Positions 1,467-18,218 of a stretch of DNA of 31,941 bases are shown in pieces; within the stretch, counting starts at the first letter, position 1, and every line of letters starts with the position of its first letter. Under the pieces are notes generated by a model, which was not told the origin of the DNA, made no database searches, and saw only the letters and a program-made list of their open reading frames with translations. This DNA is from a virus: IMG/VR virus record IMGVR_UViG_3300047557_001664, positions 1 to 31,941 of that record. One strand, given 5' to 3'. The translations under genes and the position numbers were made by a program.

Positions 1467-1865
1467 TTATTTATACATTTTAACTCTGAAAATCATCTCA
1501 TCCAAAAATATATTTCGAATATATTGTTGAATGTGGTCTTGAGTTTTAAGTATAGCCTCAATATGTTCTGTTGTCAAGTCTTTTAACGGTACATATTTCA
1601 AAGGCTGCTTACCATCTTTGCCACGTGTACCCCACTTAAATGCTTCACGAATTACATCATGTGGATCATCCGAATACACCGACAATTCCTCATAAGGTGC
1701 TTCATCATGTACGTTACGACGAAGATAATCTAAGCCGCCATCGACCATGTATATAAGTCCATTTTTATCGGGATGAGATTTAAAATCATGCCGATGCATG
1801 GACTCAAGAATCGTACCGTCAGGTGTACGGATACGATTCGATACGATTCTTTCTTTACTCATCAT
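1467..1865 (-). CDS. conserved hypothetical phage protein
   Basis: About 132 residues, soluble, highly charged, with a helical C-terminal half (…LTTEHIEAILKTQDHIQQYIRN…). Two start codons lie in tandem (MMSKERI); both overlap or follow the TGA of the upstream 55-residue gene. The middle has YSDDPHDVIREAFKWGTRG. I do not recognise a catalytic motif. A promoter-like element lies inside the gene at 1549-1577. Confidence 0.8.
   Translation of the reverse strand: MMSKERIVSNRIRTPDGTILESMHRHDFKSHPDKNGLIYMVDGGLDYLRRNVHDEAPYEELSVYSDDPHDVIREAFKWGTRGKDGKQPLKYVPLKDLTTEHIEAILKTQDHIQQYIRNIFLDEMIFRVKMYK
1549..1577 (-). promoter_or_regulatory. internal sigma70 promoter
   Basis: TTGACA at 1572-1577 and TATACT at 1549-1554 with a 17-bp spacer, inside the coding region of the 132-residue gene. 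It would transcribe the 31-residue ORF and read toward the terminator before tRNA-Pro. Being inside a gene, chance is more likely than for the intergenic promoters. Confidence 0.45.
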
Positions 1866-2029
1866 TCTACACACCAACCTTCATCAATCAAGCCACGTGC
1901 CGTTCGACCATACGAACCTTGCAATTTCCAAACAAGTCCAGAATCGATCAATTCTTGAAACAATTCGATAGTGGCCTCAAAATCTAGTTTGCCTTGTTCA
2001 AAAGCGATAATTTTATCTATATGATCCAT
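1862..2029 (-). CDS. small conserved phage protein (DUF7417-like)
   Basis: A 55-residue helical protein, M-DHIDKIIAFEQGKLDFEA…, followed by LFQELIDSGLVWKLQGSYG. From memory this pattern is common in T4-like and other phages as a DUF7417-type protein; its function is unknown. The start was chosen because GGAGG lies 7 nt upstream of ATG 2029. Its TGA overlaps the next start. Confidence 0.8.
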   Translation of the reverse strand: MDHIDKIIAFEQGKLDFEATIELFQELIDSGLVWKLQGSYGRTARGLIDEGWCVE

Positions 2030-2031
2030 GA

Positions 2032-2421
2032 TTAAGCCTCCAGAGCATAAGGTTTGTTCCACTTACCGATGTTTACGTCGATATACCAACCAACATTAAA
2101 GTAATCGACTTGTGCATCAGATTTGTCCCAGTTACCAGCATTCATTGCTGGAATCACTTCACTCAAAAAGTGATATGCTTCACCATTGAAGTGGCTTTTG
2201 TAATGATACGGATTTACCTGAATACCAAATTTCTCAGCATCGGCACGTGTTTCTGGTGTATCACCGTAGTCACCGATAAAATCCACTTTACCAGATTTTA
2301 CATTCAGCACCAGCGTAGAATGATTGCGTACTGCAAGGCTGGCTTTGACGCCATACTTTTTGCAGATTGCCTTAATCTTAGGTGCCAACTTTGCCTTCAA
2401 ATCTTGCGAAACGTAAGCCAT
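2032..2421 (-). CDS. conserved hypothetical phage protein (LPD29-like C-terminus)
   Basis: About 129 residues. The start MAYVSQ has GGAGG 6 nt upstream. The middle (AVRNHSTLVLNVKSGKVDFI) and end (VGWYIDVNIGKWNKPYAL) recall widespread phage proteins, possibly related to the large-polyvalent-protein LPD29 domain. No known activity. It is the first gene after the promoter at 2455-2483. Confidence 0.8.
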   Translation of the reverse strand: MAYVSQDLKAKLAPKIKAICKKYGVKASLAVRNHSTLVLNVKSGKVDFIGDYGDTPETRADAEKFGIQVNPYHYKSHFNGEAYHFLSEVIPAMNAGNWDKSDAQVDYFNVGWYIDVNIGKWNKPYALEA

Positions 2422-2454
2422 CACAAACCTCCATGTAATTAATCAACATGTATA

Positions 2455-2483
2455 ATTATAGCGGCACTGCGGTACTCTGTCAA
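2455..2483 (-). promoter_or_regulatory. consensus sigma70 promoter
   Basis: TTGACA (2478-2483), 17-bp spacer, TATAAT (2455-2460): a full consensus match. The start codon of the next gene is 33 nt beyond the -10 box. It should drive the genes from 2421 leftwards. Confidence 0.9.
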
Positions 2484-2719
2484 CCAGTATTTTTGTTGCT
2501 TTTTAGCAACATTTCTTCTTCGGTGTTGTCAAGTTGAAAATGCTGGACAACATCATCCCAGAAGTCTATTGCATACCCGTCAAATTGCTGTTTTTGAAAC
2601 ACTTGGTATATTTCTGACAACACATTCAAAGTGTATGCTTTTTGATAAGTTTCAAAGACGGCAGGATAAAAACTGCCGCCTGTTTGCAGTGCTAAATCAT
2701 TCAGCAGTTTTTGATTCAT
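2480..2719 (-). CDS. hypothetical phage protein
   Basis: 79 residues, acidic and helical, with YQKAYTLNVLSEIYQVFQKQ and a Glu-rich end. Its start lies inside the 3' end of the phosphatase-like gene (23-nt overlap), so the two are probably coupled. Its last codons overlap the promoter at 2455-2483. No family recognised. Confidence 0.75.
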   Translation of the reverse strand: MNQKLLNDLALQTGGSFYPAVFETYQKAYTLNVLSEIYQVFQKQQFDGYAIDFWDDVVQHFQLDNTEEEMLLKSNKNTG

Positions 2720-3068
2720 AACGCTCCTTGATCAACTCAATTAGTTCTGGATTGCGATACTCATAGATATCAGGAATTTGCAAATCAATGATTGGCTTAT
2801 CAATCATCCATTCCATCATTTTATTCCGTACCCACAATGCGTGTTCGGTATCAGCGCACACAACCTCATCAGCCCACATCAGCAAATCTTCCGTAACAGG
2901 AATCAATGCAAATCCTGCCGTGCCTGCCGACCGTGTATTGAAGTTATACGGGTCAGCAGATAGAATGTGTGCTATCGTAGGCGACCGTAACATATTGGCC
3001 GAGCAAACTGTCAACACACGTTTATAGTCGCCTTGAAAGCGATTGGAGTGAACGCCGTATCTATTCAT
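2697..3068 (-). CDS. low-molecular-weight protein-tyrosine-phosphatase-like protein
   Basis: About 123 residues from ATG 3068, which overlaps the upstream stop and has GGA 5 nt ahead; ATG 3077 is an alternative. VLTVCSANMLRSP gives the C-X5-R-S phosphate loop (Cys22, Arg28). It is followed by SAGTAG, a strand ending in WADEVVCAD as in the family, and a possible general acid near IPD100. LMW phosphatases and arsenate reductases share this fold, and the loop differs from the usual CxGNxCRS. Activity is therefore plausible but not certain. The substrate is unknown. Confidence 0.7.
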   Translation of the reverse strand: MNRYGVHSNRFQGDYKRVLTVCSANMLRSPTIAHILSADPYNFNTRSAGTAGFALIPVTEDLLMWADEVVCADTEHALWVRNKMMEWMIDKPIIDLQIPDIYEYRNPELIELIKERYESKTAE

Positions 3069-3648
3069 TTTTTCCATTCAATTTATCAAACTCTTCTTTG
3101 AGTTCGGTTAATGTTTGTTTCATTTCTTCTTCTGTTAATTCTGAAGAAGAATTATCGGGACCATCCCAACTATCCCATTCTTCTTCTGTTTCCCAATCAC
3201 GTTTGTATTGTGCTATGCCATACGTATCTTCGAGAATTTCTGGCAATTCTTCTTCGATTTCATCAGCAGACAATTCTGCATACTCATAATAATTATCCGC
3301 ACCATCTTCGTAGATACCAGCAAAGGCCATACCAGGTTCGTTATACAGGCCTTCTACTTCCCAGCCATCTTGCTCAATGTATTCGTATAGTGTAATAGGT
3401 GGTCCCCATGCTGTTTCAAAGGTAACATAAATGGTATCATCACCAGTTCGTTCCCAATCAATGATTCTTGCATCCCATTTGGTGCCCCAATTCTCTACAC
3501 ACCAACCATAATCCCATTCACCTTCATATGGCCGAAAATGTGCAAGTAACTGTGCATCATCACCTTTATTTAACTCTGCTTCAAGTTCATCTATTTTTGA
3601 CTTTTCGGCATGGCGAACCGTCAGTGAATTGTCGCACCAATTGGGCAT
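3061..3648 (-). CDS. Api92/DUF1281-like ferredoxin-fold protein
   Basis: 195 residues starting MPNWCDNSLTV, the hallmark N-terminus of phage and plasmid Api92/DUF1281-like proteins. The next part has ENWGTKW and TFETAWGPP, also typical. The C-terminal third is strongly acidic (runs of Glu and Asp). The start has AAGGAG 8 nt upstream. Function of the family is unknown; the acidic tail might mimic nucleic acid, which is a guess. Confidence 0.8.
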   Translation of the reverse strand: MPNWCDNSLTVRHAEKSKIDELEAELNKGDDAQLLAHFRPYEGEWDYGWCVENWGTKWDARIIDWERTGDDTIYVTFETAWGPPITLYEYIEQDGWEVEGLYNEPGMAFAGIYEDGADNYYEYAELSADEIEEELPEILEDTYGIAQYKRDWETEEEWDSWDGPDNSSSELTEEEMKQTLTELKEEFDKLNGKNE

Positions 3649-3663
3649 AATATATCTCCTTAT

Positions 3664-3822
3664 TTACAGTTTACAAACCGCTTGTACTTCTACAGCGTTA
3701 TAACCTTTAGCGATTGCTACCTCACGACAACTCTGGCGCATCGTGGCCTCATAGACCGAAACAAATGTCAGTGTACCAATAAACACCAGAAAACCAGTCA
3801 AAAACAAAAGACCTTCTTTCAT
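3664..3822 (-). CDS. small single-pass membrane protein
   Basis: 52 residues from ATG 3822, chosen for AAGGAG 7 nt upstream. One hydrophobic segment near residues 4-22 (LLFLTGFLVFIGTLTFVSV) is followed by a short tail with two cysteines. Unknown function. It follows another small membrane gene at 3834-3980. Confidence 0.7.
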   Translation of the reverse strand: MKEGLLFLTGFLVFIGTLTFVSVYEATMRQSCREVAIAKGYNAVEVQAVCKL

Positions 3823-3833
3823 TTCACTTCTCC

Positions 3834-3980
3834 TTAAAAAATCGATGATAGTGCAGAAGCACCGTTCCAAGCCGATACTATCAAATAGGTCCATGCCCAT
3901 CCAGTACGACCTTCATCGGCCGCTATTGTACAGGCATTCCAAAATATCAATGCAAAAACAACGTTAATCAATAATAGCAT
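3834..3980 (-). CDS. 48-residue membrane protein
   Basis: An intact frame filling the gap between its neighbours. It has two hydrophobic stretches, MLLLINVVFALIFWNACTIA and WAWTYLIVSAWNGASALSSIF. Its TAA sits just upstream of the ribosome-binding site of the next gene. A purine-rich but weak site precedes the start. Unknown function. Confidence 0.6.
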   Translation of the reverse strand: MLLLINVVFALIFWNACTIAADEGRTGWAWTYLIVSAWNGASALSSIF

Positions 3981-3995
3981 ACTTTTATTCTTTAT

Positions 3996-4394
3996 TCAGG
4001 TTTTATTTTGATGATGATTATCACACAGTGTACGAATCCAACCGCTGGCTGTCGAATAGCCAGGTGCACCACATTCTTCACAGGTGTGCCGACTTATTTC
4101 TTCGGCCATGCGTAGCACACCGTCAGTGTATTCATTACCACCACGGTGATAGATTGTCAACATACCAAACTTTTCTTTGACCTGCTCAAAGACAACTTGC
4201 TCAATCTCTATACCACGGCGACGAGACATATCGATATGCGACTGCACCAGCCTCATGGCACTGTCGAGGATGTTATACCAGCCGTCACCATGATCAAAGC
4301 CCCAACACATGGCCGTTTGCATGGCACCGAGGCGCCGTTCAGCCATTATGTCAGGGTATTTTTCACACAGTTTTCTATCGAGGTCAGGACTCAT
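3996..4394 (-). CDS. conserved phage protein with C-terminal zinc-binding motif
   Basis: About 132 residues from the ATG of MSPDLD, which overlaps the upstream gene. MCWGFDHGDGWYNIL, a KEKFGMLTIY segment and C-terminal CEECGAP…GWIRTLCDNHH recall a widespread phage family. The four Cys/His positions could bind zinc. Function unknown. Confidence 0.82.
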   Translation of the reverse strand: MSPDLDRKLCEKYPDIMAERRLGAMQTAMCWGFDHGDGWYNILDSAMRLVQSHIDMSRRRGIEIEQVVFEQVKEKFGMLTIYHRGGNEYTDGVLRMAEEISRHTCEECGAPGYSTASGWIRTLCDNHHQNKT

Positions 4395-4548
4395 CTTTGC
4401 GGTTGATTTTCTCAACTTCCATGAGAATGAGCATCAGCGCCGCAAAGATACTCAAATCAATCCGACCCAGAAACAAACACACAACCATCAGACCAGACCA
4501 GACAAACCCTAGACCAGTCCGCAGTCTTTCCTTTGTAAACCATTCCAT
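4384..4548 (-). CDS. 54-residue membrane protein
   Basis: Two hydrophobic segments (GFVWSGLMVVCLFLG and IDLSIFAALMLILMEV) separated by an Arg-Asp turn, with a charged C-terminus. The start overlaps the upstream TAA (TAATG) and has GGAG 7 nt ahead. Its end overlaps the next start. Unknown role; it resembles a small hairpin membrane protein. Confidence 0.65.
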   Translation of the reverse strand: MEWFTKERLRTGLGFVWSGLMVVCLFLGRIDLSIFAALMLILMEVEKINRKDES

Positions 4549-4847
4549 TATACCACTCCTGTCCAGGTTGTACGATTCAGATACGAATCAGGTTTGAACA
4601 CATTGCCACGCACAAAGTTTCGAGCCGGCGATTTCCACGATGCCGCTCTCCAGATATCACCGGTGGCCTTATCGATAAACGAATGTACCGAGCGGGAGCC
4701 CCAGGACACCGACACCACTTTTACATATTTGTTGCCTTCATCAAACTCAATGCCGAACCGTTCACCGTTCGGATTTTCATATCGTAACTCATAATGGCGA
4801 ACGATAGCATCTTTATAACCAATCAGTGCAGTAGCCAAATCAGACAT
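4548..4847 (-). CDS. conserved hypothetical phage protein
   Basis: 99 residues, soluble, with NKYVKVVSVSWGSRSVHSF then DKATGDIWRAASWKSPA, a pattern I recognise from many phage genomes without a known function. AAGGAG lies 8 nt upstream of the start. Coupled to the membrane gene that follows. Confidence 0.85.
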   Translation of the reverse strand: MSDLATALIGYKDAIVRHYELRYENPNGERFGIEFDEGNKYVKVVSVSWGSRSVHSFIDKATGDIWRAASWKSPARNFVRGNVFKPDSYLNRTTWTGVV

Positions 4848-4857
4848 AATTTTCTCC

Positions 4858-5532
4858 TTAATTTACAGTAGCACCAAACTTCGGAATCGACCGAGCGATA
4901 TTGTTTTTCAGCACACTCATATACGATTCAGTGCGAGCCTTGGCACATTTCTCAGCATAGAATACATCAGGCTCAGGTGCCACCACTTCACAATTATGTG
5001 CCCAGACCCAGATCATATTCTTGTAATTCTCATACACTTTACCATTTCGCTCAACAGTCACCTTTTCATCATCCAGTGCAATACCAAGTTTATCACGCAT
5101 GACCGAGCGATAGCCCATACCGTATTGCATTTCTTTTACGACAACCACACGACCCTCTTTACCCTTCAGTGCTTTGTCACGACCACCGACCACACGCACC
5201 AGGCGACCACGTTTTGCAGGATTCTTTGCTTCGTACTCAGCATTCTCCAACTCAACATTCAGAAATCGAGCATACTCAGCAGACTCAATCTCAGGGAGTA
5301 ACGAACCAAAATCCGCATCAATTTCGACCACAGCATCATTGTCCAACCACTGCTCACGAATCACCTTGCCGTCCCAGTAGAAAGCCTTGGTGACCATCTC
5401 CCAGATATCCGACATAATTTGCTCAGAATCGTTACGAATAAACAAAGTGGTACCTACACCAATCGATACAGGCACTTTGACAATTGCACCACCGACCACT
5501 GAAGGATATTCAGTTTTGGTAAAGTTAATCAT
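4858..5532 (-). CDS. hypothetical phage protein with a KOW-like segment
   Basis: 224 residues. Around residues 105-150 the sequence RGRLVRVVGGRDKALKGKEG and the following strands look like a KOW or SH3-like barrel, which in other proteins binds RNA or protein. The N-terminal half is acidic. It is the first gene after the consensus promoter at 5565-5593. The function is unknown and the KOW match is only by eye. Confidence 0.75.
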   Translation of the reverse strand: MINFTKTEYPSVVGGAIVKVPVSIGVGTTLFIRNDSEQIMSDIWEMVTKAFYWDGKVIREQWLDNDAVVEIDADFGSLLPEIESAEYARFLNVELENAEYEAKNPAKRGRLVRVVGGRDKALKGKEGRVVVVKEMQYGMGYRSVMRDKLGIALDDEKVTVERNGKVYENYKNMIWVWAHNCEVVAPEPDVFYAEKCAKARTESYMSVLKNNIARSIPKFGATVN

Positions 5533-5564
5533 TTCGTATCTCCATTCACTCTCAACATGGATCC

Positions 5565-5593
5565 ATTATAGCCGAGGTCGGCCAGATTGTCAA
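5565..5593 (-). promoter_or_regulatory. consensus sigma70 promoter
   Basis: TTGACA (5588-5593), 17-bp spacer, TATAAT (5565-5570). The next start codon is 32 nt beyond the -10 box. The -35 box overlaps the stop of the membrane gene at 5590. Confidence 0.9.
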
Positions 5594-5838
5594 GCAATTC
5601 CATATAGTTTCATAAAAGCAACAAATGCACCTACACCGAGTATGATCGGCAGAAAGCGAATCACCAGTTTAATTGCAATATATGCAACAAATGCAAAAAT
5701 GAAAAGAATTGCTGTATCGTTATCAAAAACAAAATCTGGTATGTCCACAGAAGGTGTTGTCTTTTGCACAACCACCTCAGTGGTTTCAGTTATCTCAGTT
5801 ATCTCAGAAGACTCAGCGGGAACCAGTGTTATTGGCAT
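5590..5838 (-). CDS. small membrane protein with Thr/Glu-rich N-terminus
   Basis: 82 residues from ATG 5838, which has GGAAAG 6 nt upstream. The first 30 residues are rich in Thr, Glu and Val (ITEITETTEVVVQ). Two hydrophobic stretches follow (ILFIFAFVAYIAIKLVI and FLPIILGVGAFVAF). The N-terminal part probably lies outside the membrane. Unknown role. Confidence 0.65.
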   Translation of the reverse strand: MPITLVPAESSEITEITETTEVVVQKTTPSVDIPDFVFDNDTAILFIFAFVAYIAIKLVIRFLPIILGVGAFVAFMKLYGIA

Positions 5839-5959
5839 TTTTTGCTTTCCGTAAGTAATAGTGAAGCCAACCAGAATTAGAATCCTGGTAACGAAAGTAT
5901 AATACAACTAACAGATTAACAACGACATAGATTGCCAGAGCGATATAAAGAATTTTCAT
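5813..5959 (-). CDS. 48-residue single-pass membrane protein
   Basis: A frame beginning MKILYIALAIYVVVNLLVVL, a signal-anchor helix, then a basic polar tail. ATG overlaps the upstream TGA (ATGA), and its end overlaps the next gene by 26 nt. Unknown function. Confidence 0.6.
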   Translation of the reverse strand: MKILYIALAIYVVVNLLVVLYFRYQDSNSGWLHYYLRKAKNANNTGSR

Positions 5960-6456
5960 TTTTGCAAGTGTGCTAAACGTTTACGCCGATATGAACTCCA
6001 ATTTTCCTTTGGCAATTGTGCAGGAATACGTTCAGTCAATATACGTTTTTGTTTACCATAATATTTGCTCATTTCTTTATACTCAGCCTCAGCAAACCCA
6101 GGTGAATAATCAGGCCTCCACCAACCTTCGATATAATCAATGATATTCACCAAATCATTCTCAGTTAGCTTGTACCATTCACCACGAACGTTCTTAGGTG
6201 CATACCAACGTTTCATTGTATGCTCATACCTAGCCGCATACTTGTACATAAAATCGGTTACGTAAATGACCTTCAACTCTTCCCAGTGATTTGCTTGCAA
6301 GTCCTTGAGCCGATTCGCAATAGGACTCCGTGTGATGCCAATCTTTGTAGCAGAGCCACGTTTTCCAGAACCAATCAAATACAGATAAGCGGGAGGCTGC
6401 AAATCCCTGAGCCAATCAGCACGTAGGTCAGGTTCAATATCATAGACATAAGCCAT
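5956..6456 (-). CDS. GIY-YIG-type protein, T5orf172/MUG113-like
   Basis: 166 residues. AYLYLIGSGKRGSATKIGIT matches the first strands of the T5orf172/MUG113 branch of GIY-YIG nucleases. It is followed by NRLKDLQ (catalytic Arg region), YEHTMKRWY and GEWYKLT. Such proteins may be stand-alone homing-type nucleases or non-catalytic DNA binders. The start has GGAGAG upstream. The last 50 residues are basic. Confidence 0.75.
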   Translation of the reverse strand: MAYVYDIEPDLRADWLRDLQPPAYLYLIGSGKRGSATKIGITRSPIANRLKDLQANHWEELKVIYVTDFMYKYAARYEHTMKRWYAPKNVRGEWYKLTENDLVNIIDYIEGWWRPDYSPGFAEAEYKEMSKYYGKQKRILTERIPAQLPKENWSSYRRKRLAHLQK

Positions 6457-6505
6457 TGTTCAACTCTCCACACTCCGGTGGTTCCAAAAAAAATTTTAGT
6501 GCGAT

Positions 6506-6607
6506 TCAGTGGTGGAAGTGCAAATCGACCACAGAACCAGACGCTCGATAAGGTTGCTTCGAAAAAGCATGTTCCTTTAAGGAATCCCTTTTTTCTATAC
6601 CGCTCAT
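6506..6607 (-). CDS. possible 33-residue protein
   Basis: A frame beginning MSGIEKRDSLKEHAF and ending VVDLHFHH. A GGTG element lies 6 nt before the ATG. An upstream in-frame ATG at 6619 is possible. The His-rich end is unusual. Support is only the ribosome-binding site and the otherwise empty gap (6457-6649). Confidence 0.3.
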   Translation of the reverse strand: MSGIEKRDSLKEHAFSKQPYRASGSVVDLHFHH

Positions 6608-6649: not shown

Positions 6650-6796
6650 CTATGCACCCTCAGGGCGCCCGTATTGCTCTAGTACATTGGCCACAGTGAT
6701 TGCAGCAAGCCCCAGTCTATCGGCAATGGCCGTTACACTCAGGCCGGCATCATTCAACTCTAGCACCTCAACGATTAAGTTCTTGTAATAGCCCAT
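6650..6796 (-). CDS. 48-residue helix-turn-helix protein
   Basis: After an N-terminal helix, LSVTAIADRLGLAAITVANV fits a helix-turn-helix with recognition helix AAITVANVLEQYG. It probably binds DNA as a small regulator. The start overlaps the end of the upstream gene by 29 nt. This stretch is more GC-rich than most of the window. Confidence 0.6.
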   Translation of the reverse strand: MGYYKNLIVEVLELNDAGLSVTAIADRLGLAAITVANVLEQYGRPEGA

Positions 6797-6977
6797 TGAT
6801 TTCCTCTTCCTCATCATGTATATTCACAGCAGGCGGCTTACGGGTATTTGGATTTTCCCCGTACAGTGTCACATCACCATTTTTTCCACCTGCCACCACT
6901 GTACGTGGGGCCATGTATTGCGTAAACTCATCAGCAGCGGCCATGGCCTCAGCATCAGTGAACAGTGCCTTTTTCAT
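6768..6977 (-). CDS. hypothetical protein, MK-ALFT family member 1
   Basis: 69 residues starting MKKALFTDAEAMAA, then GGKNGDVTLYG and an acidic end. The N-terminus resembles that of the next upstream gene (MKALFTEAEVAEA), suggesting a tandem duplication. Start and upstream stop overlap as TAATG. No family recognised. Confidence 0.65.
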   Translation of the reverse strand: MKKALFTDAEAMAAADEFTQYMAPRTVVAGGKNGDVTLYGENPNTRKPPAVNIHDEEEEINGLLQELNR

Positions 6978-7324: not shown

Positions 7325-7353
7325 ATTATACAAAAACCACTGGATTCTGTCAA
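7325..7353 (-). promoter_or_regulatory. consensus sigma70 promoter
   Basis: TTGACA (7348-7353), 17-bp spacer, TATAAT (7325-7330), a perfect match. The start codon at 7295 is 29 nt beyond the -10 box. It drives the small helix-turn-helix and MK-ALFT genes. Confidence 0.92.
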
Positions 7354-7638: not shown

Positions 7639-7725
7639 TCAGCCCAGAGTAGTAACAGCACCAGGGGCAGCAGCCAGAACACCCCACACCATCAAAGCCG
7701 CAAACAGTATCAAAATCGCAAACAT
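7639..7725 (-). CDS. 28-residue membrane peptide
   Basis: MFAILILFAALMVWGVLAAA is a membrane helix. The start has a strong GAGGAG box 6 nt upstream and is the first frame after the promoter at 7760-7788. Confidence 0.55.
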   Translation of the reverse strand: MFAILILFAALMVWGVLAAAPGAVTTLG

Positions 7726-7759: not shown

Positions 7760-7788
7760 ATTATGGCGGAATAGGCGGGCTTTGTCAA
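7760..7788 (-). promoter_or_regulatory. sigma70 promoter
   Basis: TTGACA (7783-7788), 17-bp spacer, CATAAT (7760-7765). The flanks (CATCACGGT, ATTATGGCGGAA on the plus strand) are closely shared with the promoter at 11659-11687, so this is a repeated cassette. Confidence 0.82.
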
Positions 7789-8473: not shown

Positions 8474-8632
8474 TTAGTATACCTCACGCTCAAATACATC
8501 AAATTCATCGATGGTGCCGTCGAATACTAGCCCTTCGCCGTATGCTATGGCATCATTGTATTTGTTGAATACACGGAGGACGGTATCTCCCTCATAGGCT
8601 TCACATTCTACTACAATGAAAACTTTAGTCAT
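8474..8632 (-). CDS. 52-residue conserved phage protein (DUF7336-like)
   Basis: Starts MTKVFIVVECEAYEGDTVLR and has VFNKYNDAIAYGE, a pattern I associate with small DUF7336-type phage proteins of unknown function. Start overlaps the upstream TAA. The 115 bases after it (8359-8473) hold no convincing gene. Confidence 0.6.
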   Translation of the reverse strand: MTKVFIVVECEAYEGDTVLRVFNKYNDAIAYGEGLVFDGTIDEFDVFEREVY

Positions 8633-8829
8633 TATGCAATCTCCGTATAGTGGTCTATTCTGGCATCAAATTGTTCTAGTGCTTCATAGTATTCGGTGTT
8701 CAGGAGTGTAACAGTCCGACGATAGAGTCCTGTACCAATTTCCAGTTCGTAGGCATACTCGCCGGTACGCCAGAGGATTACACGCTCATCACGGCCGTTT
8801 CGCCCGTCTATAATATACTGTATGCTCAT
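8632..8829 (-). CDS. 65-residue hypothetical protein
   Basis: Starts MSIQYIIDGRNGRDERVILW, chosen because GGAG lies 6 nt upstream; an in-frame ATG four codons earlier lacks one. Beta strands then a helical acidic end. First gene after the promoter at 8861-8889. Confidence 0.65.
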   Translation of the reverse strand: MSIQYIIDGRNGRDERVILWRTGEYAYELEIGTGLYRRTVTLLNTEYYEALEQFDARIDHYTEIA

Positions 8830-8860: not shown

Positions 8861-8889
8861 AGTATAGTGGAAATTGGTAGGATTGTCAA
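8861..8889 (-). promoter_or_regulatory. sigma70 promoter
   Basis: TTGACA (8884-8889), 17-bp spacer, TATACT (8861-8866). The start at 8829 is 31 nt beyond the -10 box. Confidence 0.85.
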
Positions 8890-8897: not shown

Positions 8898-8947
8898 TGA
8901 TACTCGGAGGTTGCAGGAATAGCAAGAAAATGATACTTGGAGGTTAC
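8898..8947. repeat. 17-bp direct repeat pair
   Basis: TGATACTCGGAGGTTGC at 8898 and TGATACTTGGAGGTTAC at 8931 differ at two positions and are 33 bp apart start to start. They lie between the lipoprotein gene and the promoter at 8861-8889. Possible binding sites upstream of the promoter, or a remnant of a local duplication. Confidence 0.4.
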
Positions 8948-11211: not shown

Positions 11212-11417
11212 TACAGAACTCCTTTCACACACTCAGACTCAAGAATCACGCTTTCACGTATCTCACCGAACACCGTTATAGGATTATCCAGTGTTACATG
11301 ATGCGAAATACCACCACCGTAGGTCACACGTGATAAGCGAACTACACCAGACACGGCATAGTCACCCATATACATGCCGATCACACGCTTACCATCTAAA
11401 AATGTTTCGCCGATCAT
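11211..11417 (-). CDS. conserved hypothetical phage protein
   Basis: 68 residues, probably a small beta barrel: SGVVRLSRVTYGGGISHHVT then LDNPITVFGEIRESVILE. Similar small proteins occur widely in phages. Function unknown. Overlaps its neighbours by 4 nt or less. Confidence 0.75.
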   Translation of the reverse strand: MIGETFLDGKRVIGMYMGDYAVSGVVRLSRVTYGGGISHHVTLDNPITVFGEIRESVILESECVKGVL

Positions 11418-11626
11418 ACGATTTCCCTTCCGTCAGAACTAACTAAAACGTACTCTTCTTTAGGTGCAAACATACGGGCACCATCACGCAGAAATTGCTT
11501 CAACTCACGGCGCACCTCAGAAGGGTACTCATCTTCCATCTCAACGATAAACTGAATTGCTTCGAGCAAACCGTAGCCCCATGCATCCTGTATTACCTTT
11601 GCTTCAGCCAGTAGATTCTTGTACAT
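11414..11626 (-). CDS. hypothetical protein
   Basis: 70 residues, helical N-terminus (MYKNLLAEAKVIQDAWGYG) and short beta end (EYVLVSSDGREIV). GGAG lies 8 nt before the start. First gene after the promoter at 11659-11687. Confidence 0.7.
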   Translation of the reverse strand: MYKNLLAEAKVIQDAWGYGLLEAIQFIVEMEDEYPSEVRRELKQFLRDGARMFAPKEEYVLVSSDGREIV

Positions 11627-11658: not shown

Positions 11659-11687
11659 ATTATGACGGAAAGTCAGGGGTTTGTCAA
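11659..11687 (-). promoter_or_regulatory. sigma70 promoter
   Basis: TTGACA (11682-11687), 17-bp spacer, CATAAT (11659-11664). Flanks resemble the promoter at 7760-7788 (CATCACGGT and ATTATGACGGAA). The next start is 32 nt beyond the -10 box. Confidence 0.82.
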
Positions 11688-12428: not shown

Positions 12429-12656
12429 TCAAACAATCTCAGGTGTAGTGACCGTAAATCCTGGCTTTGCAGCCCATAGTTTACCGAATTTGGTGCATTC
12501 TGCACCGGGACCCAATCTCATCTCACGGCAGGTTCGTTTTGTATGCTCACCATAAATTGGATCATCATATTTTACCGCCTGCGGGTGTAAACAAAAAGCC
12601 TCTTTTTCAGAGGCTTCTTGAAAGTATTTACAGTCCTTACATAACTTCATTGTCAT
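12429..12656 (-). CDS. small Cys-rich, probably zinc-binding phage protein
   Basis: 75 residues. CKDCKYF near the start, then FCLHP, CREMR and CTKFG, so five to six Cys/His positions could bind a metal. Such C-x2-C-KYF proteins occur in many phages. The ATG overlaps the upstream TGA. Function unknown. Confidence 0.72.
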   Translation of the reverse strand: MTMKLCKDCKYFQEASEKEAFCLHPQAVKYDDPIYGEHTKRTCREMRLGPGAECTKFGKLWAAKPGFTVTTPEIV

Positions 12657-12844
12657 CCCATCTCACCGTAGGCAATGGCATCAAGGTCCCACGAATGAGC
12701 CGCATATAACATGGCTTGATGTTCGGCAAACATTTCATCTAGCATAGACTCATACTCGGCTTCGGCATCTTCGGCCAATGTAGCCTCGGCAATTTCCCTT
12801 GCTAATTCGTTAATTACATCATCGTCAACAACAGGCGTAGTCAT
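12653..12844 (-). CDS. acidic hypothetical protein
   Basis: 63 residues from MTTPVVDDDVINELARE, chosen for GGAG 6 nt upstream. Very rich in Glu, Asp and Ala and almost all helical. It could be a nucleic-acid mimic or a partner-binding protein. First gene after the promoter at 12875-12903. Confidence 0.68.
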   Translation of the reverse strand: MTTPVVDDDVINELAREIAEATLAEDAEAEYESMLDEMFAEHQAMLYAAHSWDLDAIAYGEMG

Positions 12845-12874: not shown

Positions 12875-12903
12875 AGTATAGCAGCAAGTAAAAACTTTGT
12901 CAA
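12875..12903 (-). promoter_or_regulatory. sigma70 promoter
   Basis: TTGACA (12898-12903), 17-bp spacer, TATACT (12875-12880). The start at 12844 is 30 nt beyond the -10 box. Confidence 0.86.
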
Positions 12904-12904: not shown

Positions 12905-13162
12905 TCAGCCACCCTTAGCTTTTATCACTTTGATAAGCATATCGATCTCAGGCCAATCGTTGCGTTCTTGATAACTACCAACGTAGAACCCACGAATAGT
13001 GCTGAGGCCACGCAGTGCATTAGGACCATAGACATATCGAAAATCATAATCACAACCAACCATTCTTTTACGAATTACAAAATCATCGTATTCATCTTGA
13101 TTGCCCGCTACGATGAAAAGCGGACCTAGCTTACCCGCCACGGCTATTGAATCCCAATTCAA
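12905..13162 (-). CDS. conserved hypothetical phage protein
   Basis: 85 residues. LGPLFIVAGNQDEYDDF then NALRGLSTIRGFYVGSYQER suggests alternating strands and helices. The V-A-G-N and RGL pieces recall a phage family of unknown function. Its start overlaps the upstream gene by 32 nt. Confidence 0.72.
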   Translation of the reverse strand: MNWDSIAVAGKLGPLFIVAGNQDEYDDFVIRKRMVGCDYDFRYVYGPNALRGLSTIRGFYVGSYQERNDWPEIDMLIKVIKAKGG

Positions 13163-13388
13163 ATTCCATCATCAACATTTTTGCGATATTGATATATTGT
13201 CTTGCCGCTTCAGGATTACCCTGAAGGACCTCTTGTGCATCCGACAGATAACTTGCAACTACCATACCTGGTCCCGAAAGTTTAAAAGTAATTGAATCTT
13301 TCACAGACTCTACGATTTCATCTTTGTACCCACCGTAAGCCTGCATTTCCCATTTTCTTTGTACAGCAGCATTTACTAAGTTACTCAT
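13131..13388 (-). CDS. hypothetical phage protein
   Basis: 85 residues from MSNLVNAAVQRKWEMQ, chosen for GGAG 6 nt upstream; an upstream ATG at 13400 lacks one. Mostly helical, with YLSDAQEVLQGNPEAARQYI. No family recognised. Confidence 0.7.
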   Translation of the reverse strand: MSNLVNAAVQRKWEMQAYGGYKDEIVESVKDSITFKLSGPGMVVASYLSDAQEVLQGNPEAARQYINIAKMLMMEFELGFNSRGG

Positions 13389-13399
13389 CACGTTCTCCA

Positions 13400-13672
13400 T
13401 TATTTAAACACAATCAAAGCCAACAGTATGCTATTGAAGAAGAATCCGACAGCGTTACTGATTATGTATAACTTATCGTTCCTACCCAACGCACGAACCA
13501 GAAACAGAAACAAACCACTCCACACCATCAACACCATGCTAAGTGGTGGCAACTTATCACTGTAACCCAGAATCACACCCAGACTAGTTGGTAGAGTAGC
13601 AGCATGAATCATCACCATGCCAACCCAGCCACACAACTCACTTATATCAAATTTGCTAACTTTCTTACTCAT
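13400..13672 (-). CDS. conserved phage membrane protein with three helices
   Basis: About 90 residues from MSKKVSKFDISELCGW, with GAGAG upstream. Hydrophobic segments are GWVGMVMIHAATLPTSLGV, LSMVLMVWSGLFLFLVRAL and ISNAVGFFFNSILLALIV. This three-helix pattern recurs in phage genomes, and I have no firm function for it. First gene after the promoter at 13700-13728. Confidence 0.72.
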   Translation of the reverse strand: MSKKVSKFDISELCGWVGMVMIHAATLPTSLGVILGYSDKLPPLSMVLMVWSGLFLFLVRALGRNDKLYIISNAVGFFFNSILLALIVFK

Positions 13673-13699
13673 CATTTCTCTCTTTCTCATCACATTGTT

Positions 13700-13728
13700 A
13701 GTATGGCGGAAAGCGGTAAGATTGTCAA
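13700..13728 (-). promoter_or_regulatory. sigma70 promoter
   Basis: TTGACA (13723-13728), 17-bp spacer, CATACT (13700-13705). The start codon is 27 nt beyond the -10 box. Confidence 0.78.
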
Positions 13729-13731
13729 CCA

Positions 13732-13794
13732 TTATCTGCTAGGTGCCTGCCTTTTTCGCCATAATGATTTCTTTTTGACAACTTTTTCAGACAT
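13732..13794 (-). CDS. possible 20-residue basic peptide
   Basis: ATG overlaps the upstream stop (ATGTCTGA). The peptide is MSEKVVKKKSLWRKRQAPSR, very basic. It ends just before the promoter at 13700-13728. Too short to judge alone. Confidence 0.25.
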   Translation of the reverse strand: MSEKVVKKKSLWRKRQAPSR

Positions 13795-14218
13795 TTGTTA
13801 CCTTTCTGATAACACGAACCTGCTCGTCGGGTGTTACATAAATTCTAGCACGAACTATTGTTTCCATTCTTGCAACATCTTGCTGTTTTGTAAACTCAAT
13901 GTACCTGCCGTCCATCAATTCTCTTACCAATTTCGTAATCAATCTGTTTTTAAGTTCTATGTCATCCATTTGTATGGCTTCATTGGCATCAAGTCTCATT
14001 TCAGCAGCAACCATTTGACCTTTGATTATATCAAGCGAAGCATTTGTCACATTGCCATTGATACTGCCGACACCAGTTACATTGTTGCCAACGCCAGAAT
14101 TCCAACGCATCACTGAGGCATGATCAACTACTGGAGGATAGTCTTTTACACTTGCAGTAAGTGACTTATTTGTCAGCATATCATCAATCCAAACATCTAC
14201 ACTTTTCAAGTCACTCAT
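13787..14218 (-). CDS. hypothetical phage protein
   Basis: 143 residues, soluble. The middle has a Gly/Asn-rich piece (NSGVGNNVTGVGSINGNV) followed by helices. The C-terminal 50 residues look like helix then strands. No family recognised. Start overlaps the upstream TGA. Confidence 0.72.
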   Translation of the reverse strand: MSDLKSVDVWIDDMLTNKSLTASVKDYPPVVDHASVMRWNSGVGNNVTGVGSINGNVTNASLDIIKGQMVAAEMRLDANEAIQMDDIELKNRLITKLVRELMDGRYIEFTKQQDVARMETIVRARIYVTPDEQVRVIRKVTNV

Positions 14219-14463
14219 TGCACATTCTCCATTCGTTCACGCCAATAGTTTCGTTCTGCCCAATGCACAATACACCAATCATTGATACAATTTTCTTTTG
14301 TGATTTGTTTTGAGATTAAATGATGAGGATTTACTTCTGCCACTTTACTTGACCAATAATCCCAATAACTGTCCAGAATTTCTTGTTCAGATAATGTTTC
14401 CCAATGTACGTATTCTTGACCTAGAATATTGTGGTCGGGATAACATATGGTATAGTATTTCAT
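14215..14463 (-). CDS. conserved phage protein
   Basis: 82 residues, MKYYTICYPDHNILGQEYVH then WETLSEQEILDSYWDYWSSK and NCINDWCIVHWAE. I recognise this Trp-rich pattern from many phage genomes. Function unknown. Confidence 0.82.
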   Translation of the reverse strand: MKYYTICYPDHNILGQEYVHWETLSEQEILDSYWDYWSSKVAEVNPHHLISKQITKENCINDWCIVHWAERNYWRERMENVQ

Positions 14464-14972
14464 TACAACAATCCATTTTCATTCTGCGGTGGTGATGGCG
14501 GCTCTGCATCCGATTGTCGATATTCGTAGATAGGTTTATCTGGTACAGCATAGGGAAAAGTTACGAATACTCTGCTGTCTCTGTTTGTGTAATATGATTT
14601 TACTGCTTCACCAGTTTCTTCATCACGAATCCATTCCCAAAATACTTTACCATCGATATCATATGCCTCACCGTCTTTACTTTCTTTGAATACGGATGAA
14701 CATCTTTTGTTTTGATATGTTTTACCAGATTCACCATAGTTATGTTCATACCATTCATCATCTTCACCCGTCAACGGTGACAGTGGTTTGAATCGCATTA
14801 ATTTTTCAAGGCATTGTAGTGCATAATTAGCAGAGAAGCCAGAATGTCCTTCTTCAGAAAATTCTTTGACCATGTGCAGCAAATGCTTTCGCATCATGCC
14901 ATTCATGTCACCATCATCGGTCATACCAATGCGGTCCAATTCACTTTCAGCATATTTGACTAGATTGCTCAA
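14463..14972 (-). CDS. conserved phage protein
   Basis: 169 residues. An N-terminal helical part (MSNLVKYAESELDRIGM; EEGHSGFSANYALQCLEKL) is followed by LSPLTGEDDEW and QNKRCSSVF. It ends with YYTNRDSRVFVTFPY. This is a widespread phage protein of unknown function with a probable beta-sheet C-terminal domain. Confidence 0.85.
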   Translation of the reverse strand: MSNLVKYAESELDRIGMTDDGDMNGMMRKHLLHMVKEFSEEGHSGFSANYALQCLEKLMRFKPLSPLTGEDDEWYEHNYGESGKTYQNKRCSSVFKESKDGEAYDIDGKVFWEWIRDEETGEAVKSYYTNRDSRVFVTFPYAVPDKPIYEYRQSDAEPPSPPQNENGLL

Positions 14973-15325
14973 TTGTATTCTCCTTGTTCATTCTTCAATG
15001 CGGGTTTACGGCGTAGCATACGACTAAGTTTATATAACCATGTCCAGTGCCACATATGATGAAAGCCAATAAACACTCTCAGATATAGAACAACAAAACC
15101 AATTGTTATACTATCTGGTGCAAGATTGATTTCAGCACTGAATGAGGGAGATTCTAGTGTCCAAATTCTGAATATCAACCAATGTAGTGACCAGTTGTTG
15201 GCATTCCATTCATCACCTGGTCGATACTCAAATCTTGGAACTAAGGGGCAAGCATCGTTGCACCATATTTGATGAAGTGGGTAATGTTCCCACCAGTATT
15301 TTTCCCTCACTGCTACTTCACTCAT
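14969..15325 (-). CDS. conserved phage protein, possibly membrane-associated
   Basis: 118 residues. WSLHWLIFRIWTLESPSFSA then ITIGFVVLYLRVFIGFHHMW: aromatic-rich and hydrophobic, a pattern shared by many phage proteins of unknown role. GGGAG lies 9 nt upstream. It begins 20 nt after tRNA-Arg. Confidence 0.8.
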   Translation of the reverse strand: MSEVAVREKYWWEHYPLHQIWCNDACPLVPRFEYRPGDEWNANNWSLHWLIFRIWTLESPSFSAEINLAPDSITIGFVVLYLRVFIGFHHMWHWTWLYKLSRMLRRKPALKNEQGEYN

Positions 15326-15344
15326 AATATAATCTCCCTTGTAT

Positions 15345-15419
15345 TGGCACGGCTAGCAGGAATCGAACCCACATTTAGGGAGTAGAAATCCCCTGTATTA
15401 TCCATTATACGATAGCCGC
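15345..15419 (-). tRNA. tRNA-Arg (anticodon TCT)
   Basis: Acceptor GCGGCTA pairs with TAGCCGT (G-T first pair), then G and encoded CCA. The anticodon stem GGGGA/TCCCT holds loop TTTCTAC, giving TCT, which reads AGA and AGG. T loop TTCGATT. It lies 6 nt after tRNA-Leu. Confidence 0.93.
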
Positions 15420-15425
15420 TTTGAT

Positions 15426-15508
15426 TGGTACGGGTAGACGGACTCGAACCGTCAAGCCGAAGCGGGAGATTTTAAGTCTCCTGAGTTTACCAATTTCTCC
15501 ATACCCGC
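15426..15508 (-). tRNA. tRNA-Leu (anticodon TAA)
   Basis: Acceptor GCGGGTA pairs with TACCCGT, then A and encoded CCA. The anticodon stem GGAGA/TCTCC holds loop CTTAAAA, giving TAA, and a long variable arm (CGCTTCGGCTTG) marks a class II tRNA. Its first base directly follows the stop codon of the gene at 15509. Confidence 0.94.
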
Positions 15509-15697
15509 TTAATAATATTTAATGTAAATACATCTCGGACTTACACGATAGCCATCCATACGCCATTGTTCTTTCACTCTATCACGTTCTTTGTGACATT
15601 GCTCAAGGCTACGTTGTGGTGCTTCTATCACACCTTTGCTTTGCACAAGTTCGGTGTTTGATTGTAGCATATACAGGCTAATCATTAAAACCCACAT
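15509..15697 (-). CDS. small signal-anchored protein
   Basis: 62 residues with a short hydrophobic N-terminus (MWVLMISLYML) then a charged domain with two Cys. Its TAA is immediately followed by the first base of tRNA-Leu, so mRNA and tRNA must be separated by processing. Function unknown. Confidence 0.62.
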   Translation of the reverse strand: MWVLMISLYMLQSNTELVQSKGVIEAPQRSLEQCHKERDRVKEQWRMDGYRVSPRCIYIKYY

Positions 15698-16455
15698 TAA
15701 TAACCACCACTCTGTCCATTTGGTCGTGGCTCTTTGCGCTGTGGTGCATCCAAATCTTGTTCTTTCAAATGTAAACCAGTCAAACTATGCTCATCGCCAA
15801 TATAACCTTTAAGGAATGTATTGATAGCAATACTCACTCTGGTATCGTTGCTTGTTGTTTGTTCCACCATATGAGTAAGATATGATGGGAAAATAACAAT
15901 ATCACCAGTGCCTACAGAGAACCACCATGACTCCGAATTGTATGGATTAAAGTTCTCTGTGGGCAAATTGATTCTATTATATTTGTCATTATAAAATGTA
16001 ATGCGGTCTTTTTCACGGTCGGTACTCACATAAATGCAACCAGACAACCAACTGTTTGGGTGTGCGTGTTTGTGATGAAATTGACCAGTCTTAGTGTAAT
16101 TCATCCATGATTGTGTAATATATGCCTCAACTGGATATTTTGGTGCATATATTTTTTCCATGTAGTAATTGATATAAAACTGATAGTAATCACGAATGTC
16201 CTTCATTACAGGATGGTCTAGCACATATCGGTCTGCACTTGTTAGATTGCCAGTATTTTGTGTGGTAGATTTCGCAGTCTCATTGAAAAACTTTTTCTCA
16301 TCGTCTGTCCATTCACGGTGAAAACGTGCAAACAATACAGGCGTAGGAAATAAACCATGCACATTTGGCTCAGGCATGATTCGAATTGTGCTGCTTGCAA
16401 GTGATGCAGGTTGAATAGTTGGTTCTGGATTACTTTGTTTCTTTTTCTTTGTCAT
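15697..16455 (-). CDS. 2-oxoglutarate/Fe(II) oxygenase family protein
   Basis: About 252 residues from MTKKKKQSNP, with GGGA 5 nt upstream. After a basic Pro-rich N-terminus, LFPTPVLFARF starts the domain. The metal-site region HHKHAHPNSWLSGCIYVS and the distal THMVEQTTSNDTRVSIAIN match the TIGR02466 / 2OG-FeII_Oxy_5 pattern of phage dioxygenases, with a distal His and an Arg for 2-oxoglutarate. T4-like cyanophages carry several of these; substrates are mostly unknown. Confidence 0.85.
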   Translation of the reverse strand: MTKKKKQSNPEPTIQPASLASSTIRIMPEPNVHGLFPTPVLFARFHREWTDDEKKFFNETAKSTTQNTGNLTSADRYVLDHPVMKDIRDYYQFYINYYMEKIYAPKYPVEAYITQSWMNYTKTGQFHHKHAHPNSWLSGCIYVSTDREKDRITFYNDKYNRINLPTENFNPYNSESWWFSVGTGDIVIFPSYLTHMVEQTTSNDTRVSIAINTFLKGYIGDEHSLTGLHLKEQDLDAPQRKEPRPNGQSGGY

Positions 16456-16564
16456 TTTCTTCCCTATCAATTTCTAGCCAGATATATCCGGCAGTCTCAT
16501 CTATAACTCGTTGCGACCACATTTCTTCATTCTCAAGAACGGGAATGTCATACTCTGGTGCCAT
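16430..16564 (-). CDS. 44-residue acidic hypothetical protein
   Basis: Begins MAPEYDIPVLENEEMWSQ, contains AGYIWLEID and ends in a run of Lys and Glu. It starts 8 nt after the stop of the upstream gene and overlaps the oxygenase start by 26 nt, so coupling is likely. Function unknown. Confidence 0.5.
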   Translation of the reverse strand: MAPEYDIPVLENEEMWSQRVIDETAGYIWLEIDREENDKEKETK

Positions 16565-16571
16565 CCAGGGT

Positions 16572-16790
16572 TTACTTATATTTGCTTTCGAAGTATTCAT
16601 TTACTTTAAACTTTGCTTCTTCCATTGATGCTGCAATGACTCTTACCCATGCTACACCGCCGGCAATTTCCATATCAAATGGTACGGGACCATCGAATTG
16701 AAATTCTTCAGGCACCACTATTTCAACCTCATATTCATCAAGATTACGAATGCGATTCATCACTGCTTCAAATTCGGCTCGGCGTGTCAT
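16572..16790 (-). CDS. 72-residue hypothetical protein
   Basis: Starts MTRRAEFEAVMNRIRN, chosen because GGAG lies 6 nt upstream; an ATG two codons earlier sits on the box itself. Helix, strands (YEVEIVVPEEFQFD; VAWVRVIAAS), helix layout. It has its own promoter inside the upstream gene (16810-16838). Confidence 0.7.
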   Translation of the reverse strand: MTRRAEFEAVMNRIRNLDEYEVEIVVPEEFQFDGPVPFDMEIAGGVAWVRVIAASMEEAKFKVNEYFESKYK

Positions 16791-17652
16791 AATCATCTCC
16801 TATCACTCCATTATACACAACTCGTTTCACAGTGTCAACTCTCTGTGACGGATTACGTGCGCCCATTACAACTATTACCTCATGATAATCTCGGTCACCT
16901 TCTGTTTTATGTACCATAATGGCTACACAAAATCCTGCCGGGTTCGTGTAGCCGGTCTTGCTCACCTGAACACCATTCACTTGTGATAATATAGCAGTGT
17001 TCGTATTATGTAGAACTAAAACTCTATTTTTCTGTTTGACCTGTGTCAAAATTGTTGCCACTTTTTTGGTAGAAATCTCACGAATCTCAGGATAGTTTGA
17101 AGATTCAATTACCATCTGTGTTACATCACTGGCGGTGCTTACATTGTATTTACTCAAGCCTGAAGGATCATCAAAACTTGTGCTATACATGTCCAGCATC
17201 AATGCTCTTGAATTCATATGATGAATGAATCGTTGGCGGCCACCAGGATAGTCTGACGCCAATGTTTCTGCTGCTGCATTATCACTTTTAATCAATAGCA
17301 TATGAAACAATTCACCACGTGTGTATTCACGCTTAGGCATTTTGCTGCCAGCATTTTTACTCAATACAAGTTTACGGCTCATATCACGATCATAGTCTAG
17401 TGCAATCATGGCAGTCATAAGTTTTGTCATACTAGCCAATGCACGGACTTGGTCAATATTTTGTGAACGTGTAATTGCATTGTCGGTGATATTTGTTACC
17501 ATCACCGATATATTGCCATAAGTTTGCACCGTATGCTGCTTGGCTTTCTTTTGTTTCTTGTGTTTGGGTTTAGCATGTACAGATTGAATACTGAGAAAAA
17601 ACAAAATAAAAAAGAATGCTATCCACCGTGTGAGTGTAAATTGTTTATTCAT
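16768..17652 (-). CDS. D-alanyl-D-alanine carboxypeptidase/endopeptidase (peptidase S11)
   Basis: 294 residues. A signal peptide (hydrophobic 9-25, likely cleaved after VHA) and a Lys-rich stretch precede the penicillin-binding domain. All three motifs are present: S74-M-T-K77 with the nucleophile Ser, S123-D-N125, and K232-T-G234. Length and motif spacing fit PBP7/PbpG-type enzymes without the extra C-terminal domain. It should trim or cut peptidoglycan peptides in the periplasm. Such genes are normally bacterial. Here it sits in a phage operon, overlapping the next gene. Confidence 0.9.
   Translation of the reverse strand: MNKQFTLTRWIAFFFILFFLSIQSVHAKPKHKKQKKAKQHTVQTYGNISVMVTNITDNAITRSQNIDQVRALASMTKLMTAMIALDYDRDMSRKLVLSKNAGSKMPKREYTRGELFHMLLIKSDNAAAETLASDYPGGRQRFIHHMNSRALMLDMYSTSFDDPSGLSKYNVSTASDVTQMVIESSNYPEIREISTKKVATILTQVKQKNRVLVLHNTNTAILSQVNGVQVSKTGYTNPAGFCVAIMVHKTEGDRDYHEVIVVMGARNPSQRVDTVKRVVYNGVIGDDYDTPSRI
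16810..16838 (-). promoter_or_regulatory. consensus sigma70 promoter inside the peptidase gene
   Basis: TTGACA (16833-16838), 17-bp spacer, TATAAT (16810-16815), within the last codons of the D,D-peptidase gene. The next start (16790) is 19 nt beyond the -10 box. It would drive the 72-residue gene and the oxygenase. Confidence 0.8.
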
Positions 17653-17741
17653 CTGATTAGTAAAGAAATTGTGAACGGTAAAGACATCACCGTGAAGAAT
17701 ATGATGATATAGAAGAATAGATATCTGAATAGTGTGTTCAT
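17649..17741 (-). CDS. 30-residue membrane peptide
   Basis: MNTLFRYLFFYIIIFFTVMS is a hydrophobic helix and the peptide ends with Arg. A strong GGAGAGG lies directly before the ATG, and its TGA overlaps the start of the D,D-peptidase. Possibly it couples translation to that gene or acts as a small membrane peptide. Confidence 0.55.
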   Translation of the reverse strand: MNTLFRYLFFYIIIFFTVMSLPFTISLLIR

Positions 17742-17758
17742 CGCCCTCTCCTTGGGCG
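17742..17758 (-). promoter_or_regulatory. hairpin presenting a ribosome-binding site
   Basis: On the minus strand CGCCC and GGGCG pair around the loop AAGGAGA, which is the ribosome-binding site of the 30-residue gene; the ATG follows the stem directly. The fold could display or hide the site. There is no U-tract, so it is not a terminator. Confidence 0.5.
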
Positions 17759-17764
17759 ACAAAC

Positions 17765-18016
17765 TTATTTCAGTTTATCACCCACTTGTTTAATTGTTTT
17801 TTCGTAGCCTTCACAAAGTTCCATGTAATATCGAACCTCATTCCACGCATGTAATAATTGAAATTTTGCCTCATATAGCGTATTTGTCAGTGCCTTGTAT
17901 CTGTCCCTGGGACCATTTTCAATAAGTGTTATCAGAATATCAAGTTTATCAATGATGCTAACATCATCGGTTTCAATCTTATCATCATCACCAAAACTAT
18001 CGGGATCTTCTGTCAT
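17765..18016 (-). CDS. acidic hypothetical protein
   Basis: 83 residues. The N-terminus is very acidic (MTEDPDSFGDDDKIETDD) and the rest helical (IIDKLDILITLIENG; ALTNTLYEAKFQLLHAW). The ATG overlaps the upstream TGA. No family recognised. Confidence 0.68.
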   Translation of the reverse strand: MTEDPDSFGDDDKIETDDVSIIDKLDILITLIENGPRDRYKALTNTLYEAKFQLLHAWNEVRYYMELCEGYEKTIKQVGDKLK

Positions 18017-18183
18017 TTTTCGCCTTTTTCAAGCAGATTAATTGCATCTTTTGTAAATCTTATTTCTTTGTTAAGGTTATCACGAATTTCATGTAATTCT
18101 AGCAACTTTGCCCGTAAACGATTGAGTTCCACATTTTCATCTGCGGACTTTTGTTTGGGTGTAAATGTATATATCTCAGCCAT
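18013..18183 (-). CDS. 56-residue coiled-coil protein
   Basis: Starts MAEIYTFTPKQKSADENVEL and continues as one helix with heptad-like Leu spacing. No ribosome-binding site is visible. The promoter at 18190-18218 ends 6 nt before the ATG, so the message may be leaderless. Confidence 0.58.
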   Translation of the reverse strand: MAEIYTFTPKQKSADENVELNRLRAKLLELHEIRDNLNKEIRFTKDAINLLEKGEK

Positions 18184-18189
18184 AATTGA

Positions 18190-18218
18190 AGTTTATCATC
18201 ACTATCAATTTTTGTCAA
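18190..18218 (-). promoter_or_regulatory. sigma70 promoter, probably leaderless
   Basis: TTGACA (18213-18218), 17-bp spacer, TAAACT (18190-18195). Only 6 nt separate the -10 box from the ATG of the next gene, which would place the transcript start at or next to that ATG. Confidence 0.55.

Follow-up and report, generated by a model that had tools for sequence, protein, structure and literature searches.

The stretch of DNA analysed here (the window, 31,941 bases, which is the whole length of its record) is part of the genome of a freshwater phage of T4-like (Kyanoviridae) type. It carries an array of TTGACA-containing sites that are very probably the early promoters of a lytic phage of this kind, read by host RNA polymerase with its primary sigma factor. 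Each site would combine a consensus -35 hexamer, a spacer of exactly 17 bp, a near-consensus -10 hexamer and a short 5' leader with a Shine-Dalgarno sequence, the leader being approximately 20-27 nt long if transcription starts at the usual 7 nt past the -10. We infer both transcription and its timing: the host sigma-factor polymerase would read the sites right after DNA entry, and they would drive the tRNA cluster and short runs of small variable-region genes, while the structural genes, as mapped in a syntenic relative, would use late-type (gp55-type) promoter matches instead. The first-pass annotation had read the sites as early-gene promoters used by host RNA polymerase, and the sequence supports promoters of this sigma70 type. 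For a clade of freshwater T4-like phages that is abundant but uncultured, the array supplies a set of predicted early promoters that is both clean and conserved. It separates early from late-type control on sequence alone and makes likely early genes recognisable by position, e.g., the Tad3-type anti-Thoeris gene of this arm.

The promoter array and its placement

Nearly all substantial ORFs of the window lie on the minus strand. Its right end encodes primase, ThyX, NrdA, a ferredoxin-family protein, NrdB, a PstS-like protein and a phosphate-selective porin family protein. The nearest isolates for primase and ThyX include the T4-like Pelagibacter phage Mosig, Methylophilales phage Melnitz and cyanophages, at approximately 40-60% identity. 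The nucleotide search against phage isolates returned tRNA matches only, and the Rfam scan of the window gave nothing above the gathering score except tRNAs. The Pfam search for MotA and AsiA in seven records yielded no match, and the control genomes also gave none. In the early arm, ORF 14463-14972 (minus strand) matched Pfam Tad3, a type I Thoeris inhibitor (E 2e-42), and is likely an anti-defence gene. ORF 6650-6817 (minus strand, 55 aa) showed weak similarity to HTH_23 (E 2.9e-5), making it a candidate small regulator in the same arm.

All twelve minus-strand sites of the first-pass annotation were recovered in place, each with an exact TTGACA and a 17-bp spacer; ten had at most one mismatch in the -10 hexamer and two had two (Table 1). 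A sigma70-type preference of the host polymerase is assumed in applying this consensus. The chance level was determined from 500 dinucleotide shuffles of the window, and the reversed sequence served as a second control. Ten strict sites (exact TTGACA-N17 followed by a -10 with at most one mismatch) were counted on the minus strand and none on the plus strand, as against a mean of 0.18 (maximum of 3) in the shuffles and 0 in the reversed sequence, so the -35/-10 fit with 17-bp spacing of T4-type early promoters is found here. The preference for this spacing was sharp, with no minus-strand strict matches at 13-16, 18 or 19 bp and one each at 20 and 21 bp. When up to two mismatches to TTGACA-N17-TATAAT were allowed, 20 matches were obtained where 7.4 are expected by chance, and the minus strand held 19 of the 20. 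Across the related loci (L009-L168, approximately 2.1 Mb), 269 matches occurred at 17 bp versus 4-26 at other spacings, and the reversed control of these loci gave 10 at 17 bp.

The description of the promoters as near-identical holds for the hexamers but not for the spacers, whose mean identity within the window was only 0.36. Among 182 pooled sites, A was present at 56-61% five to seven bases 5' of the -35, an A-rich stretch that may correspond to the proximal UP element it resembles. The TGn extension of the -10 was found among the listed sites only at 12875 and 18190, and it was weak in the pooled relatives. This shortage counts against T4-type early promoters, but it was not treated as excluding them, because TGn is a frequent and not a required feature in T4. 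In T4, the early promoters are of a strong sigma70 kind, and their consensus extends beyond the hexamers (PMC2988021). The window set resembles them in being strong sigma70-type, suited to host polymerase, present in many copies per genome and located in regions of small non-essential genes (PMC2988021), and differs in its scarcity of TGn and in its leaderless-type members.

Table 1. Predicted promoters and late-type motif matches in the window (-10 mismatches and distances to the start codon are given where available)
Position	Strand	Feature	Sequence	-10 mismatches	-10 to start (nt)	Context
1151..1179	-	Predicted promoter	TTGACA-N17-TAGAAT	≤1		Heads tRNA cluster (267-1300 region); ortholog before tRNA cluster in six relatives
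1549..1577	-	Possible intragenic promoter	TTGACA-N17-TATACT	≤1		Inside DUF7695 gene 1467-1862
2455..2483	-	Predicted promoter	TTGACA-N17-TATAAT	≤1	33	ATG of ORF ending 2032; orthologous in six relatives
5565..5593	-	Predicted promoter	TTGACA-N17-TATAAT	≤1	32	ORF 4858-5532; orthologous in G010
7325..7353	-	Predicted promoter	TTGACA-N17-TATAAT	≤1	26	45-aa ORF, then small ORFs
7760..7788	-	Predicted promoter	TTGACA-N17-CATAAT	≤1	34	Very short ORF (ATG near 7725); orthologous in G013, G010, G005
8861..8889	-	Predicted promoter	TTGACA-N17-TATACT	≤1	31	ORF 8632-8829; orthologous in G005
11659..11687	-	Predicted promoter	TTGACA-N17-CATAAT	≤1	32	ORF 11414-11626; orthologous in G013, 042453
12875..12903	-	Predicted promoter	TTGACA-N17-TATACT, TGn	≤1	30	ATG of ORF 12653-12841; orthologous in G013, G010, G006, 042453
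13700..13728	-	Predicted promoter	TTGACA-N17-CATACT	2	24 or 27	ORF 13400-13676; orthologous in G013, G010, 042453
16810..16838	-	Predicted promoter	TTGACA-N17-TATAAT	≤1	19	In 3' end of peptidase S11 gene (16768-17652); next ORF ends 16572
18190..18218	-	Predicted promoter, leaderless-type	TTGACA-N17-TAAACT, TGn	2	6	ATG of ORF 18013-18183
30556..30584	-	Predicted promoter, leaderless-type	TTGATT-N17-TATAAT, TGn		6	Primase ATG (ORF 29500-30549); absent from first-pass list
21302..21308	-	Late-type match	CTAAATA			Upstream of ORF 20816-21271; matching place in G013 (88300)
23887..23893	-	Late-type match	CTAAATA			Upstream of PstS-like gene 22756-23781; matching place in G013 (85684)

All strict sites of the window lay below 17 kb. 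The earlier claim of a single site in the right half needs qualifying: two listed sites (16810 and 18190) are right of the midpoint, and no strict site was present past 16.84 kb. The distribution was followed further in the syntenic relative G013 (133,235 bases), whose PstS is 89% identical to that of the window and which carries the same promoter array at 92.9-106.4 kb, before the same genes. Its gene map was made with Melnitz proteins, among which those tested gave no match at 58-79 kb. Neck, sheath, tube, portal, capsid and terminase genes were located at 8-23 kb, gp55, gp47 and gp46 at 31-35 kb, the clamp, clamp loader and polymerase at 43-53 kb, the primase to NrdB segment at 79-86 kb, and gp33, gp59 and gp32 at 130-132 kb. 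Outside long genes, exact-TTGACA sites were found in G013 only at 36.5-41.7 kb (five sites) and 91.5-125.3 kb (17 sites), and none were present at 1-32 kb (gp13-gp23, terminase) or 58-91 kb. A restriction of the pattern to the early arm is supported, the mapped structural module of G013 being free of such sites; on the G013 map the placement in early and replication regions, outside structural modules, is that of T4-type early promoters.

A homolog of gp55 is present in G013. The heptamer CTAAATA occurred in this genome 12 times in the forward and 0 times in the reverse orientation, in some cases just before gp18 and gp19; single matches are no proof, because the reversed-sequence control contained 6. 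Two matches in the window suggest, from their position before the PstS-like gene and ORF 20816-21271, that the phosphate genes may be expressed late.

The window's promoter set fits the kind known from T4, Melnitz and cyanophages. In Melnitz, 31 sigma70 early and 15 late promoters were predicted, with no phage RNA polymerase and no middle promoters recognised (PMC9004378), and our scan returned 16 strict sites in its genome. Sigma70-like motifs accompany the early genes of S-PM2 and Syn9; homologs of motA and asiA are missing from T4-like cyanophages, whose late motif is NATAAATA (PMC2984593). Common to Melnitz, S-PM2, Syn9 and the window clade are sigma70-like early and T4-type late promoters, with middle ones unrecognised (PMC9004378, PMC2984593). 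The window clade differs in being freshwater and uncultured, and in its late-type motif, which is mainly CTAAATA and not TATAAAT/NATAAATA.

Inheritance of the promoters and a leaderless-type minority

When grouped by the gene they precede, the promoters formed orthologous sets across the window, G013, G010, G005, G006, G007 and record 042453. Orthologous promoters precede orthologous genes in these seven genomes, and the promoters are therefore considered vertically inherited. Leader identity was 0.66 between orthologs in different genomes versus 0.31, the chance level, between different promoters of one genome, and no shared flanking or leader sequence beyond chance was detected among the latter. 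Upstream hairpins accompanied 13 of 57 promoters versus 13 of 105 control positions, which is not clearly above control, and the leaders were unstructured. Approximately 11 ORFs follow the promoter at 11659 before the next listed one, and most promoters head several genes. Consequently, the earlier reading of the sites as stand-alone cassettes is not supported, as they are mostly multigene, look vertically inherited and are without a clear stem-loop partner.

These data also bear on mobile promoter/stem-loop (PeSL-like) cassettes, which would move by recombination and reassort early genes among phages. Composite elements of this type are known in T4-type phages (Arbiol 2010 and Comeau 2014, as cited in PMC4503421), and what that source relates of them, repeated early promoters among small variable genes, is seen in the window as well; moreover, some sites have an upstream hairpin, e.g., 2455 (z -2.7). 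Nevertheless, we regard this explanation as improbable, given the orthologous synteny in seven genomes, the lack of shared flanks or leaders within a genome and the hairpin frequency in the controls. In comparison with the PeSL elements as cited there, the window promoters have neither a consistent stem-loop partner nor shared flanks, and show orthologous synteny instead. The evidence gives no support for placing the set among PeSL elements or stoperator systems.

The start codons had been said to lie mostly 27-34 nt past the -10. This was nearly so at seven sites (26, 30, 31, 32, 32, 33 and 34 nt) but not at 16810 (19 nt) or 18190 (6 nt). Most distances from the -10 to the ATG, taken over the window plus six relatives, were 28-34 nt, and a minority of 6-10 nt recurred at the same genes across relatives. 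The primase promoter stood 6 nt from the ATG in the window, G013, G010 and record 042453, the promoter of a 55-57-aa gene 7 nt from it in G010 and record 042453, and those of a 118-aa and a 130-aa gene 9 nt each. The place of 18190 is kept in several relatives with a better -10 (TATAAT or TAAAAT) and 7 nt to the ATG. With the -10 six nucleotides from the ATG at 18190 and 30556, the transcripts would therefore be leaderless, and messages of the short group in general would have almost no leader if transcription starts approximately 7 nt past the -10.

The 118-aa early gene with its leaderless-type promoter was observed at L203 (G013, 121655 region), with orthologs in G007 and G010. The spacer of this promoter and the first codons of the gene hold partly complementary GAAGGTAG/CTACCTTC-like stretches, which suggests a dyad around the -10 and the ATG.

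Rewriting of promoter bases in related lineages

In a pool of nine genomes, spacers of the same genome resembled each other more than those of different genomes did (z 10.1). In 23 groups the likeness was strongest right after the -35 (z 12.8) and was also present on both sides of the -10 (z 5.4 and 6.9); the flanks showed it little or not at all. Per lineage, homogenisation was clear in G002 (ATT), G010 (AGT, then GG after the -10), G014 and others, and was absent in G013, the lineage of the window (z ~0). Spacer homogenisation was accordingly rejected as a property of the window, the signal being a pooled one and the per-lineage test negative in the window's own lineage. In the close clade, it was restricted to the three bases after the -35 and the discriminator.

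Some sister phages had the three bases after the -35 and the two after the -10 rewritten at most of their promoters. In G010, the orthologs were changed to TTGACAAGT with GG following the -10, and neither flanks nor genes moved. Most G010 promoters with orthologs elsewhere carry AGT where other relatives have ATC, AAG or GAG; together with the preceding C, the rewritten bases form a CTTG-A-CAAG dyad. The IMG/VR scan for the G010-type promoter gave mostly single matches among the matches listed. A 264-kb IMG/VR contig (L337) contains fifteen TTGACA-N17-TATATT-like sites in 8.5 kb, most of which share a cagct..aatg spacer, the spacer consensus of that phage. A spacer consensus in general is not new, because it has been noted for T4 (PMC2988021) and is seen in other IMG/VR phages; concerted promoter rewriting between close relatives may be new.

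Possible causes of the rewriting are a trans-acting phage factor, a changed preference of the host polymerase and selection for promoter strength, any of which would suffice. That it marks early promoters co-evolving with a trans-acting factor, a candidate for T4-like early shut-off, is unlikely. If the lineage rewriting were caused by a phage factor, it would make early shut-off in T4-like phages testable.

A further proposal is that the promoters double as operators, with a phage regulator reading the bases beside the -35 and -10 and thereby switching the regulon. It would accommodate the homogenised bases beside the -35 in G010, G002 and G014, the change of the G010 orthologs with their flanks kept, the small HTH_23-like ORF in the early arm and the shut-off of T4 early promoters, which is unexplained (PMC2988021). 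We nonetheless consider it very improbable for the window: the homogenisation signal is absent from its own lineage, the candidate regulator is hypothetical, and the sister lineages are accounted for just as well by a difference in host or polymerase or by selection for promoter strength. Cluster A mycobacteriophages have many operator/stoperator sites away from promoters (PMC6550527). The likeness to that system is that sites overlap early promoters and the consensus differs between phage lineages (PMC6550527), whereas here the phage is of lytic type, no repressor is known and the motifs are tied to a -10. Indeed, no free stoperator-like sites were found for the extended -35 motifs of G010 and G014, which occurred only with a -10; one exception was present in G002.

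Sites within genes and adjacent sequence features

Chance matches in an AT-rich coding arm have next to no probability as an explanation of the whole set, and this reading is refuted by strict matches that exceed each of 500 shuffles, share a single strand and spacing, and are conserved at orthologous positions, even though loose (9/12) matches were in modest excess in the left half (56 versus 42.8 shuffled, sd 6.5) and equal to chance in the right half (55 versus 53.8), and 17021, possibly also 1549, look like coding coincidences.

The site at 16810 was compared among 16 homologs, in which the Val codon starting the -35 and the Asn codon ending the -10 were invariant and the codons between them varied more. 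As the hexamer-end codons are unchanged, a real promoter is supported here. The 1549 hexamers were kept in eight of nine homologs, with no start codon nearby. Its status as a promoter is uncertain, because mean synonymous conservation (0.71) was about the average of the DUF7695 gene (0.64) and one homolog had lost the hexamers. Both 1549 and 18190 may have little promoter activity or none. The orthologs of 13700 in G013, G010 and record 042453 have TATACT as the -10 in two cases.

Just upstream of the 8861 promoter, a near-perfect 15-bp direct repeat, AACCTCCRAGTATCA, was observed at 8931-8945 and 8898-8912 (minus strand), possibly an operator. Approximately 18 nt past the -10 of the tRNA-cluster promoter lies GATCTTTAAAAAG (1120-1132, minus strand), which we take to resemble the boxA antitermination site of rRNA operons. 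Similar TTCTTTAAAAAG sequences were found downstream of the orthologous tRNA-cluster promoter in G005, G007 and G009.
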